Shown here piece after piece: positions 3,757-38,558 of a stretch of DNA of 64,000 nucleotides; positions within the stretch are counted from its first letter, which is position 1; each line of letters opens with the position of its first letter. This DNA comes from Candidatus Poribacteria bacterium (GTDB lineage Bacteria; Poribacteria; WGA-4E; PCPOR2b), in assembly GCA_022826645.1 (NCBI GenBank), contig JAJDUM010000003.1, positions 61,328 to 125,327 of the forward strand. Reading direction: 5' to 3'. Position numbers and translations under genes: made by a program. The notes beneath the pieces were generated by a model. It saw only the letters and a program-made list of their open reading frames with translations, had not been told where the DNA came from and did no database searches.

Positions 3757-4455
3757 TCAGCGAAAACCAAAACAAATTCTATAATTCGGATTGAAGTCAT
3801 CTAGAGAAGAATCCACGCCCCCAATAATTGAAAATTGACGCGACAGATTCAACTTCCCACCAATGTAGTATTTTAGCCCACTATTTGAAAACGGACTTGT
3901 GGACCATCCTACGGATCCTCTAAACGCAGGATATACCCCACCCACAATACTATGATCTTTAGCTAACCCAAACCATAACATAGGAGACAATCTTAATTTT
4001 GTTTTGAAGGACTTCAACACCCCGCCACCATAGCTTAACTTCCCTAGGGTCTTCGTCATCACAAACTTCCCCTCATGTCTGGCAGTGCCTCCGCCTCTCG
4101 CAATTTCACTAAATAGAAATACTTTTAGACCTGTTTCCGTCATTGGAATTATGTACCGTATTCCCATCCCTACTATAGGAAAGACTATTGTATCGAAAAA
4201 ATCGGATTTATCCTCCTGAATCCAGACGTTAGTTCCCCAGACCACCTGAAACCTATTACCTATCTTATGTGCTAAGAGTGCTCCAAACACCGTATTGTCT
4301 AACGGTTCCTCATCGTCCCCGCCTAAGATAAGAGTAAACCGAGGAGGTTCCGGTACAAAAACACCCGCACTCCATTGTCCTTCAGTCCTAACAGACACAC
4401 AGAAAACAATTGATATTATAATAATCACGAATAAGATAAAACGACGGAAACGCAC
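3757..4455 (-). CDS. Exported hypothetical protein, possible beta-barrel
   Basis: N-terminal hydrophobic signal; alternating strand pattern; ends in FGFR with terminal aromatic region. Confidence 0.5.
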   Translation of the reverse strand: MRFRRFILFVIIIISIVFCVSVRTEGQWSAGVFVPEPPRFTLILGGDDEEPLDNTVFGALLAHKIGNRFQVVWGTNVWIQEDKSDFFDTIVFPIVGMGIRYIIPMTETGLKVFLFSEIARGGGTARHEGKFVMTKTLGKLSYGGGVLKSFKTKLRLSPMLWFGLAKDHSIVGGVYPAFRGSVGWSTSPFSNSGLKYYIGGKLNLSRQFSIIGGVDSSLDDFNPNYRICFGFR

Positions 4456-4582
4456 AACATTACCTTTCTCCCCCAGCCCAACACCGTTTCACCGGGGAAA
4501 AGCGAAAACAGCATTTACCTCTGAGCACTTCATTTGTCTCTGTGATAAAACCTCTAATAACATCAAATATCCGATAATCGAA

Positions 4583-4840
4583 TTATCGGATATTGTTAGC
4601 ACTACGCATATCACTTTGGTCAATATACTCCTTTATGCGATTAGGAAGGTTTATATCTGTGGCTTTTAAGGAGAGGAAAAGCTCGGATGCTTCGTTCATG
4701 TTGTCATGCTCTATTGCCTTCTTTACCTGAGTCAGGTCATCTATTGCAGAATCAATTTGCTTACAGAGATCGTCTCGCTGCTTATTAGGATCTTTCAAGA
4801 CACTTCTCCTTTCAAATCCCCATTTCTGTAGTTTCGCCAC
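4583..4840 (-). CDS. Small hypothetical protein
   Basis: 85-aa ORF in line with neighbouring minus-strand genes. Confidence 0.35.
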   Translation of the reverse strand: MAKLQKWGFERRSVLKDPNKQRDDLCKQIDSAIDDLTQVKKAIEHDNMNEASELFLSLKATDINLPNRIKEYIDQSDMRSANNIR

Positions 4841-34056: not shown

Positions 34057-34094
34057 ATGCTTGACAAATAAAAAAACAAAATGAGGGATGTACA

Positions 34095-35144
34095 ATGGCT
34101 CAGCGAATCGCGCTTTTTAATCACAAGGGTGACGTGAGCAAGACAACAACGACATTTAATTTGGGCTGGATGTTAGCCTCAAAAGGGAAGAAGGTTATCC
34201 TGGTGGATGCTGATCCCCAATGCAATTTAACAGGGATCGTGCTTGGATACACAGGAATAACTGAGTTTGAGCAATTCTATGAAAAAGAGACCAATTTGAG
34301 AGATGGAATTGCTCCAGCTTTTGAATCTCGACCAAAACTCATTGAAGCGGTTGAATGTATTCCGGTCACAGGACAGAAAAATTTATTTCTGCTTCCGGGT
34401 CATATCCGACTGTCTGAATATGAAGTAACGCTGGGAATTGCACAGGAACTTTCTGGATCAATTCAAACACTTCAGAATTTACCCGGATCGATTGCCTATC
34501 TGTTAGAAAAAACAGCGGAGGAGTTTGATGCAGATTATGTGTTGATCGATATGAATCCGGGGCTTAGCTCAATCAACCAAAATTTACTGATGACAAGTCA
34601 TTTTTTTATCGTCCCAACGAATCCAGATTATTTCTCAGTGATGGCGATAGAGTCCTTAGCAACAGTGCTGCCGAAATGGCACACATGGGCTGAAAAAGCC
34701 CGCACTTTACCAATCCTTCAGACTGCGGCCTATCCATTCCCAGAAATTACTCCAAAACTCCTTGGCGTAATCATTCAAAATTATCCCCCACGAGGTGGTG
34801 CACCCACTGTCGGCTTTCAAAGATGGATCGACGAGATCAACACCACTGTCTCCTCAAAACTGGTTTCCGAATTACGCAAAATTGGAATGATGTTACCTGA
34901 CCAAGTTTACAGGGCGGAAAATATGGGGGCGGCATCCTGTTTGGCAACAATCCCCGACTTCAATACGCTGATTGCCAAATCACAAGACCACCAAACCCCT
35001 GTTTTTGCGTTGACCCCTGAACAGATTGGTCAGGCCGGTGGAGTCGAAGAAATTACACTTAAATCAAGGGATAGTTTTCAGCAGATTTTTTCAGAACTTG
35101 CGGATAAAATTATCGGGCTAACAACTCATGCAAGCAGCGATTGA
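34095..35144 (+). CDS. ParA-like AAA ATPase with non-canonical Walker A
   Basis: ALFNHKGDVSKTTTTFNLGWMLASKGKKVILVDADPQCNLTG; YVLIDMNPGLSSINQNLLMTSHFFIVPTNPD. Confidence 0.88.
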   Translation: MAQRIALFNHKGDVSKTTTTFNLGWMLASKGKKVILVDADPQCNLTGIVLGYTGITEFEQFYEKETNLRDGIAPAFESRPKLIEAVECIPVTGQKNLFLLPGHIRLSEYEVTLGIAQELSGSIQTLQNLPGSIAYLLEKTAEEFDADYVLIDMNPGLSSINQNLLMTSHFFIVPTNPDYFSVMAIESLATVLPKWHTWAEKARTLPILQTAAYPFPEITPKLLGVIIQNYPPRGGAPTVGFQRWIDEINTTVSSKLVSELRKIGMMLPDQVYRAENMGAASCLATIPDFNTLIAKSQDHQTPVFALTPEQIGQAGGVEEITLKSRDSFQQIFSELADKIIGLTTHASSD

Positions 35145-35733
35145 TCAATTTCGGGTAAATATTGCTCGTGTCCGCAATCTTGGGGTTATCCATAATACCT
35201 TAAATGTTCAAACTACCGCAGCAATAGATCTCTCTGATATATTGAGATCTGAAATGGTGATGGCTGTTAGCGCACTTGACTTCTACATCCATGAAATTGC
35301 CAGGCTCGGTATGTTAGAAATTTATCATGAGACTCGTCCTGAAACGTCTGCATTTCTGCGATTTCAGATTTCACTAGAGAGTGTTCGTCAAGCCGTCAGT
35401 AACCCAATGAATGACGATTGGTTAGAACATGAGATTCGGGAACGTCACAGTTGGCGAAGCTTTCAGCAGGCGGATCATATAGCGGATGCTATTCGATTAA
35501 TCTCGGATATCAGTCTGTGGGAACAAGTATCAAACCATCTGGGAATGCCAGCGCAAGATGCAAAGGAACAAGTCAATCTTATCGCCGATCGAAGAAATAA
35601 AATCGTTCATGAAGCGGACATGGATCCAACTCCTTACGATACCCGATGGACCATTGATGCAGCTTTAGTAGATGACGCAATCAACTTTATCGAACAGATT
35701 GCTGAAGCAATATATGACCTATTAACAACCTAA
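35128..35733 (+). CDS. HEPN-type (RiboL-PSP-HEPN-like) protein
   Basis: VMAVSALDFYIHEIARLGM; C-terminal RRNKIVHEAD gives Rx4H; overlaps the ParA-like gene by 17 nt. Confidence 0.78.
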   Translation: MQAAIDQFRVNIARVRNLGVIHNTLNVQTTAAIDLSDILRSEMVMAVSALDFYIHEIARLGMLEIYHETRPETSAFLRFQISLESVRQAVSNPMNDDWLEHEIRERHSWRSFQQADHIADAIRLISDISLWEQVSNHLGMPAQDAKEQVNLIADRRNKIVHEADMDPTPYDTRWTIDAALVDDAINFIEQIAEAIYDLLTT

Positions 35734-35746
35734 AAAGGAAAAAACT

Positions 35747-36671: not shown

Positions 36672-37556
36672 ATGGCACAAGATTGGAAAACAATTATTCC
36701 CCGCGTAGAGCAGCTGCTCGACAAAGTGGAAGGACTCTTAACAGCCAGCACCGCTGCGGTCGAAAACCCCTCTGAGCCGCTCGATGGACATATCGCCTTT
36801 CGGTGGCGGAGTCAACGTCTGATTCCCGTCAAACACCCCGACCTCATGGAACTTACGGATCTGATTGGGGTGGATCGGCAGATTGAAGAATTGGATCGGA
36901 ATACACGGCAGTTCTTGCAGGGCTTACCGGCGAACCATGCGCTGCTGTGGGGTGACCGGGGGACAGGCAAATCGTCGCTTATCAAGGGGATACTCCATCG
37001 GTATGCACCCGAGGGGTTACGGCTGGTCGAGGTGAACAAGGAGGGGTTGCTCCATCTCCAAGAAATTGCCGATCTCTTGTGGGATCGTCCGGAACGGTAT
37101 CTCCTCTTCTGCGATGACCTCTCTTTTAGCGAAGGGGAAGCGGAATATAGGGAGTTGAAAGCGATGTTGGAGGGCGGGATTGCCGCCCGTCCCGAGAACG
37201 TCCTGATCTATGCGACATCCAACCGTCGGCACTTGATGCCGCGTCAAGTCGGGGAAAACCAATATCCCCAGACCGATGAAGATGAGCTGTATCCGCGGGA
37301 AACCACCGAAGAGAAGGTTTCGCTCAGCGATCGGTTTGGACTGCGACTTGCCTTCTATCGGTTCTCTCAACACACCTACCTACAGATTGTCTCCCACTAC
37401 GCCCAAAAGCGTGGCCTGTCTCTCTCAACGGAGGAACTGCATAGGAGAGCGTTGGAGTGGGAAGCGTCGTCGAGCGGTAGATCGGGACGGGTTGCACGCC
37501 AGTTCGTTGATGATCTTGCCGGGCAGTTAGGGTTGGAAGTCAAGCCTCATCTGTAG
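36672..37556 (+). CDS. DUF815-type AAA+ ATPase
   Basis: LLWGDRGTGKSSLIKGILHRYAPEGLRLVEVNKEGL...YLLFCDDLSFSEGEAEYRELKAMLEGGIAARPENVLIYATSNRRHLMP. Confidence 0.92.
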   Translation: MAQDWKTIIPRVEQLLDKVEGLLTASTAAVENPSEPLDGHIAFRWRSQRLIPVKHPDLMELTDLIGVDRQIEELDRNTRQFLQGLPANHALLWGDRGTGKSSLIKGILHRYAPEGLRLVEVNKEGLLHLQEIADLLWDRPERYLLFCDDLSFSEGEAEYRELKAMLEGGIAARPENVLIYATSNRRHLMPRQVGENQYPQTDEDELYPRETTEEKVSLSDRFGLRLAFYRFSQHTYLQIVSHYAQKRGLSLSTEELHRRALEWEASSSGRSGRVARQFVDDLAGQLGLEVKPHL

Positions 37557-37568
37557 CAGTAGAACAGG

Positions 37569-38558
37569 TTACCGCGTTGGATTTTCAGGTTCCTCCGTTT
37601 CGCTCTCAGCCGGATTCCGATCCCGACGGGTCCGTTCAACCTGCGCTGCGCCTTCCGGGTCATCTTCTCTGAGACGACGAAGCCCTTCCTCTGAACCGTA
37701 CTGGTCAAACAACCGCTTCGCCCGCTCTTGTTGCTCCGATGATAATCTCTTCCATCCATGCACTTCTTGACTGTTGACTGGAGGCGTTTCGTGTACATGT
37801 CCCTTTTCCAAATGAACAGAATCCGGCTTGCCCAGTACCCTGACCGATGTTGGTTGAGGCCTTACAGGTAAAATTTCAGAATGAGCAGGTACGGAAACTG
37901 TATCTTCACCAAAATCCTCTGAAGAAACGGTATCGGGCGCAGGCATACTTTGCAGCAACTCCACATGTCCATCAAATAGATGTCCATATTCTTTACCCAA
38001 ATTTTCATCTATGTGTTTAAGGATTCTGTCCGGCGGTGCGTTGATAATCATCGCGTCACCTCGATGTACCACGGAGACACCTAACTTCCTTAGTTCCTCT
38101 ATGGATTCGTTGGTAAAATCGTTGGCTAGATCAAAATTGGCACCTTTTGATTGTAACCATCTTTGAAGCATAAGTGATTTTCGAGTAGCCTCGCTTGGGT
38201 ACAAGTAAAGTGACGCTTCTAAGTAAGCAACACGCTCATCAATTGTCAGCCCTTCTTTCAAGCGTTTTTCTTTTAGTTCCACGTAAGTCTCAACGGCGTC
38301 GGTGTACCCAAACTGCTCCGTGAGTTGGTGACGTAGCTCGGCTACCAGTTCATCGGGAGACATCTCCGACAGCTTCAGTACCTCGTTTTCCCGAGTCGTG
38401 TCCTCACTTATTGTCTCTGCCCCATTCACCGGTTGATCCACGGCGGGAGACGCCGGCGAGAGGTCGTCAATAAACTTTTTTTTATTAATCTCCATATAGA
38501 CAATAAATCCAACGAGTAAAGATAGACAAGCGATGATAGCAGCGATAAGGTTTCTCAT
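37569..38558 (-). CDS. Membrane-anchored hypothetical protein
   Basis: N-terminal TM, then a charged region; no family recognised. Confidence 0.6.
   Translation of the reverse strand: MRNLIAAIIACLSLLVGFIVYMEINKKKFIDDLSPASPAVDQPVNGAETISEDTTRENEVLKLSEMSPDELVAELRHQLTEQFGYTDAVETYVELKEKRLKEGLTIDERVAYLEASLYLYPSEATRKSLMLQRWLQSKGANFDLANDFTNESIEELRKLGVSVVHRGDAMIINAPPDRILKHIDENLGKEYGHLFDGHVELLQSMPAPDTVSSEDFGEDTVSVPAHSEILPVRPQPTSVRVLGKPDSVHLEKGHVHETPPVNSQEVHGWKRLSSEQQERAKRLFDQYGSEEGLRRLREDDPEGAAQVERTRRDRNPAESETEEPENPTR

Follow-up and report, generated by a model that had tools for sequence, protein, structure and literature searches.

Within the window, the 64,000-nt stretch of Candidatus Poribacteria DNA that was analyzed, a gene for a ParA/Soj-like ATPase overlaps a gene for a HEPN protein. 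With moderate confidence, we read the pair as a mobile two-gene module resembling a toxin-antitoxin system, in which a putative HEPN RNase toxin would be held by the ATPase and the P-loop of the ATPase would be dispensable for that restraint. We favor this reading because of the HEPN family membership, the strict linkage of the two genes, their overlap, the asymmetry of their decay, the lesions tolerated in the P-loop, and the mobility of the pair. The surprise for a specialist would be the apparently dispensable P-loop.

Conservation of the overlapping ATPase and HEPN genes

Both open reading frames, with the coordinates and the 17-nt overlap given in an earlier note on this DNA, proved exact (Table 1). 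The pair lies between a GNAT gene and a DUF1932 dehydrogenase gene, and it is more AT-rich than its neighbors, as had been judged by eye, with a G+C content of 43.3%, as low as in only 4% of segments of the same size, vs 51.5% upstream and 52.4% downstream. At positions 37632-37700 of the window, about 70 bp of sequence have 75 to 87% identical copies on several other contigs of the same genome and of relatives, and represent a small repeated element.

Table 1 Features of the ATPase-HEPN locus, in window coordinates
Feature	Position	Strand	Remarks
ParA/Soj-like SIMIBI ATPase gene	34095..35144	+	349 aa, PF13614 AAA_31
HEPN (RiboL-PSP type) predicted RNase toxin gene	35128..35733	+	201 aa, all-helical model
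17-nt overlap of the ATPase and HEPN genes	35128..35144	+	kept across phyla
Walker A segment HKGDVSKTTTT	34122..34154	+	ATPase residues 10-20
Putative HEPN catalytic motif RRNKIVHEAD (R155, R156, H161)	35590..35619	+	HEPN residues 155-164 of 201
Second conserved HEPN motif S48-A49-x-D51-x3-H55-E56	35269..35295	+	long second helix
Inserted segment, GNAT gene to DUF1932 gene	34057..35746	not assigned	three species of the genus lack it, two keep remnants

The window ATPase belongs to the AAA_31/ParA family (PF13614, 100 bits) and matches PHROG 164, annotated as ParA-like partition protein (174 bits). Its AlphaFold model has a pLDDT of 83, and the best PDB matches are 3pg5 (DIP2308), Soj, and ParA. 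The Walker A sequence is present as originally read, but its deviation is not a hallmark of the system. The norm for the family is HKGGV[S/G]KTTTT, with HKGGVSKTT in 106 of 132 distinct ATPases and HKGGVGKTT in 16, and the S15 of the window ATPase is the majority residue. The only other distinct ATPase with Asp at position 13 is that of a cyanobacterial pair (L140), and G13D is a single-base change, the codon being GAC in the window vs GGC in a decayed copy of the sister species G005. The "deviant" Walker A of the window is the family-norm KGGVSKTT with a lineage-specific G13D change.

The second protein matches PF18735 (RiboL-PSP-HEPN) with 40.4 bits, above the cut-off of 28.4, and the same match was found in the HEPNs of 27 of 27 relatives. 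The Rx4H motif, with the spacing counted from R156, had been correctly recognized, although it lies about 40 residues before the end of the protein and is not terminal, as had been claimed. R155, R156, and H161 are unchanged in 110 of 110 intact pairs and in 116 of 116 distinct intact HEPNs. The predicted structure is all-helical with a pLDDT of 94. A Foldseek comparison of the model with the PDB gave zero matches under an E-value of 0.001; HepT-type HEPN toxins recur among the weak top 50 matches together with other helical proteins, and a sequence search of the PDB gave no match. Since the structural matches are weak and mixed, the HEPN call leans on the profile match. A chance motif was ruled out by the Pfam threshold and the pLDDT of the model, and the assignment of the protein as a HEPN is judged solid. 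PF18737 (MAE_28990/MAE_18760-like) is unmatched by the window HEPN and was matched weakly in six of the 27 relatives (best E-value 4e-4), with two ParA-linked cyanobacterial HEPNs narrowly above its cut-off. PHROG 13503, which has no assigned function, matches the window HEPN with 127 bits and the HEPN of Pseudomonas phage WX-TY with 328 bits, and can be annotated as a predicted HEPN family.

When GTDB genomes were searched with the ATPase, 80 loci were found, 56 to 67% identical to the window protein, in Cyanobacteriota, Chloroflexota, Spirochaetota, Bacteroidota, KSB1, Electryoneota, Acidobacteriota, Planctomycetota, Pseudomonadota, Poribacteria, and Latescibacterota, and the pair itself is present in at least 10 phyla; many of the genomes surveyed are MAGs. 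The HEPN gene lies directly 3' of the ATPase gene in most of the 80 loci. All-against-all clustering of flanking genes gave pair clusters of 80 and 71 loci, followed by an Uma2-like cluster of 12, and no third conserved gene beside the pair in the 80 loci. Among 340 cyanobacterial genomes drawn evenly, the ATPase occurs in 28, the HEPN in 29, and both side by side in 27, so that the co-occurrence check proposed earlier returned a strictly conserved two-gene unit in 27 of 28 ATPase-bearing genomes. Cyanobacterial HEPNs that match PF18735 or PF18737 strongly but belong to other subfamilies have no such ATPase adjacent, and the ParA linkage is therefore specific to the subfamily of the window HEPN. 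A second, divergent cyanobacterial branch of the pair (L300, L305, L307, L309, L310, and L329), with ATPase scores of about 360 bits and HEPN scores of about 160 bits, sometimes shares a genome with the main form. Of 110 distinct intact pairs, 85 share the 17-nt overlap and 16 have one of 8 nt, and such conservation suggests translational coupling in which the ATPase would be made first.

Unequal decay of the two genes and lesions in the P-loop

A decay survey was anchored on the HEPN so that loss of the ATPase would be visible, and covered 101 places in 98 genomes; this anchoring, if anything, favors loci with an intact HEPN. Both genes are intact at 74 of the 101 places. The ATPase is intact and the HEPN broken by frameshift, stop, or deletion at 10 places in 10 species (G144, G306, G032, G040, G421, G440, G499, G605, G066, and G668, the last with an N-terminal lesion only), and the reverse was found in one clear case (G543). 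At four further places an intact HEPN stands beside an ATPase that runs off the contig end, and at 12 places both genes are broken, remnant, or remote. One reverse loss in 11 has a binomial probability of 0.0003 by gene length and 0.006 at even odds. The set of loci anchored on the ATPase, which is biased toward the ATPase, holds about 10 further HEPN-only losses (e.g., L027, L068, L080, L090, and L092) and one reverse (L032). Breakage of the HEPN while the ATPase survives is the pattern expected of a toxin and its restraint, and the asymmetry supports the direction in which the ATPase would restrain the HEPN, although a useful role of the ATPase apart from the HEPN would produce it as well.

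A damaged P-loop stands beside an intact HEPN in nine of the 110 intact pairs: those of the window (G13D), L140 (G13D), L151 (K16S), L083 (K16T), L076 (K11N/G12S), L297, L137, L296, and L310, with K11E also among the lesions. Lesions at HEPN R155 or H161 were found in none of the 110. The HEPN partners of the P-loop mutants have on average 0.44 deviant conserved sites, vs 0.48 in other HEPNs, whereas the mutant ATPases themselves have 2.2 deviant sites elsewhere, vs 0.66 in other ATPases. That an intact HEPN can coexist with these lesions suggests that ATP binding is dispensable for restraint; nucleotide cycling may instead serve HEPN release. The lesions might also mark pairs already inactive for another reason.

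Mobility, proposed mechanism, and alternative explanations

In the genus of the window genome, three species (G001, G003, and G004) lack the pair and have the GNAT and DUF1932 genes next to each other; at the same site a C-terminal HEPN fragment is all that G002 retains, and G005 has no more than pieces of both genes. The pair is present in 16 of 58 relatives, a patchy presence with repeated loss. The window copy is 55 to 62% identical to copies from the same bacterial order vs 66% for Chloroflexota and cyanobacterial copies, and in the tree it falls outside the Poribacteria group. The empty sites and remnants in sister species, the position in the tree, and the low G+C content indicate horizontal acquisition of the window pair; low G+C is weak evidence of transfer, and the empty sites are stronger.

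The pair was also found in filamentous phages, tailed-phage contigs, plasmids, and prophages. Pseudomonas phage WX-TY (L332) carries it with an intact HEPN, both proteins matching PHROG 164 and PHROG 13503; it is on Burkholderia glumae plasmids and in accessory positions of conjugative plasmids. The HEPN led to 17 viral contigs, 16 of which carry the pair. None of the ATPases of these phages, plasmids, and viral contigs showed a P-loop lesion. In phage Pf1 (L330, AY324828.1), an unannotated HEPN lies at 4022-4629 after the "Soj-like" ORF, with its C-terminus out of frame in that record. P22-like Salmonella phages and Escherichia coli prophages carry ATPase-only relatives (L331, L336, and L337) with KGGVSKTT, which adjoin CI/C2-type repressor genes and beside which no HEPN was found; such relatives are also present in lambdoid prophages.

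In the mechanism we propose, the HEPN would be a metal-independent RNase toxin, as its fold and invariant Rx4H motif suggest, and the ATPase, made just ahead of it from the overlapping frames, would keep it inactive by direct contact, as the linkage and the decay pattern suggest. The ATPase protein would be required for restraint, whereas an intact P-loop apparently would not. More tentatively, nucleotide binding or hydrolysis would be more likely to free the HEPN upon some trigger, and the window copy, with its G13D P-loop, may be unable to leave the restrained state. A specific and rather unlikely version is a nucleotide-gated lock, in which nucleotide-free or monomeric ATPase holds the HEPN until ATP-driven dimerization on invading DNA, or release from DNA, frees it. 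If this were so, the P-loop mutants, including that of the window, would be naturally disarmed versions, and the ATPase-only copies of lambdoid and P22-like prophages would represent either relics of the lock or counter-measures against it.

Of the earlier suggestion that the ATPase senses or restrains a HEPN RNase and is not part of a partition locus, the restraint direction is supported by the decay asymmetry, and no partition partner was found. A locus for ParA-type partition or cargo positioning, next to which the HEPN gene lies by chance, would agree with the family and fold of the ATPase, yet we consider it very improbable and have rejected it: the HEPN linkage is strict over many phyla, P-loop loss is tolerated, no ParB-like gene adjoins the pair in the window, as noted before, and the best parS match in the whole 64 kb, at 36820, is only 13/16. 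The ParABS signature KGGxGK[ST] reads KGDVSKT in the window and KGGVSKTT family-wide. None of the three findings named at the outset as fatal to the toxin or antiphage idea, namely, lack of a HEPN fold, lack of co-occurrence, or a ParB/parS partner, was obtained. It is improbable, too, that the ATPase is a positive partner that positions or activates a HEPN harmless alone. The P-loop lesions would then simply switch the system off, but the HEPN should outlast the ATPase as often as the reverse, and the observed ratio is 1 vs 10. For the window copy itself, there is a lesser chance that the pair is decaying without present function, with the ATPase disabled by G13D and the HEPN to follow. This would fit the broken remnants of two sister species at the same site, the three species without the pair, and the GGC codon of the sister remnant vs GAC in the window; however, the window pair retains both frames and every other highly conserved ATPase site, and G13D is shared by a cyanobacterial pair (L140) that is otherwise intact.

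Abortive infection or superinfection exclusion, in which the ATPase would sense an invader (e.g., by ParA-type DNA binding) and trigger shutdown of the cell by the HEPN, is possible but on balance doubtful. It is compatible with the mechanism favored here and could be its purpose. The pair is carried by filamentous phages (Pf1 and WX-TY), tailed-phage contigs, and conjugative plasmids, its presence is patchy through repeated loss, and a few defense genes (DpdF, MADS, and PsyrT) lie near some loci. However, there is no third sensor gene and the neighbors are mostly ordinary: in the 30 loci scanned, defense genes are scattered only, and they were not counted as evidence. No PADLOC model matched the HEPN, and the ATPase matched only PDC-M28B, over 39 N-terminal residues. 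The original idea of an antiphage pair gains from carriage on phages, prophages, and plasmids but is not matched by a known defense model or by more than sporadic defense-type neighbors. Inoviruses carry toxin-antitoxin pairs and superinfection-exclusion genes (PMC6813254), which makes defensive or addictive use of the pair plausible, and an antiphage role likewise appears plausible.

Comparison with known systems

Among ParA-type ATPases, Soj (2bek), pNOB8 ParA (5u1j), and DIP2308 (3pg5) have the fold and Walker motifs of the window ATPase; unlike the ParA/Soj/MinD partition and positioning ATPases, the window ATPase has no ParB/parS, has an obligate HEPN partner, and belongs to a family in which P-loop loss is tolerated. 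In Salmonella 14028s, activation of RtcR, for which cleaved tRNA is the presumed signal, requires the Gifsy-1 genes STM14_3218 (ParA-like) to 3220 (PMC9879122). With its 840 bp, STM14_3218 is shorter, and it is mentioned as a lead only. Elsewhere in the window's own genome (L002, G000:C63:55291-59247), Schlafen/AlbA_2 and PLD-SNF2 helicase proteins flank a distant ParA-like ATPase (23% identity, KSGAGKTS). The AlbA_2-ParA pair recurs in a cyanobacterium (L187), and this locus is a candidate separate defense operon.

In the type VII HEPN-MNT (HepT-MntA) system, as proposed for the window, a neighboring gene encodes a nucleotide-using protein that restrains a HEPN RNase. The partner there is an MNT nucleotidyltransferase, whereas that of the window is an AAA_31/ParA protein, and the comparison yielded no evidence of chemical modification of the window HEPN. 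If our reading is true, a ParA-type motor joins the list of toxin locks, and both PHROG 13503 and the orphan "ParA" of phage Pf1 gain a suggested function.

The closest precedent is the dyad of a HEPN (MAE_18760 family) and a ParA/Soj protein predicted as a toxin-antitoxin system by Anantharaman et al. in 2013, who proposed that the ATPase is an antitoxin, acting through nucleotide-dependent conformational change or phosphorylation, and the HEPN an RNase toxin (PMC3710099). In the literature searched, outside which most subscription papers lie, no experimental ParA-HEPN pair was found. Like the 2013 dyad, the window pair is a two-gene unit of a ParA/Soj-like SIMIBI ATPase and an Rx4-6H HEPN; it may differ in HEPN subfamily, as the window HEPN falls in PF18735. 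The window pair would be a further case of this kind and is probably toxin-antitoxin-like. The 2013 prediction thereby gains a defined family, with a stable overlap, presence in at least 10 phyla, in phages, and on plasmids, and natural mutants on both sides, and with it the specific prediction that the ATPase protein, and not its ATP site, would be needed to keep the HEPN quiet.
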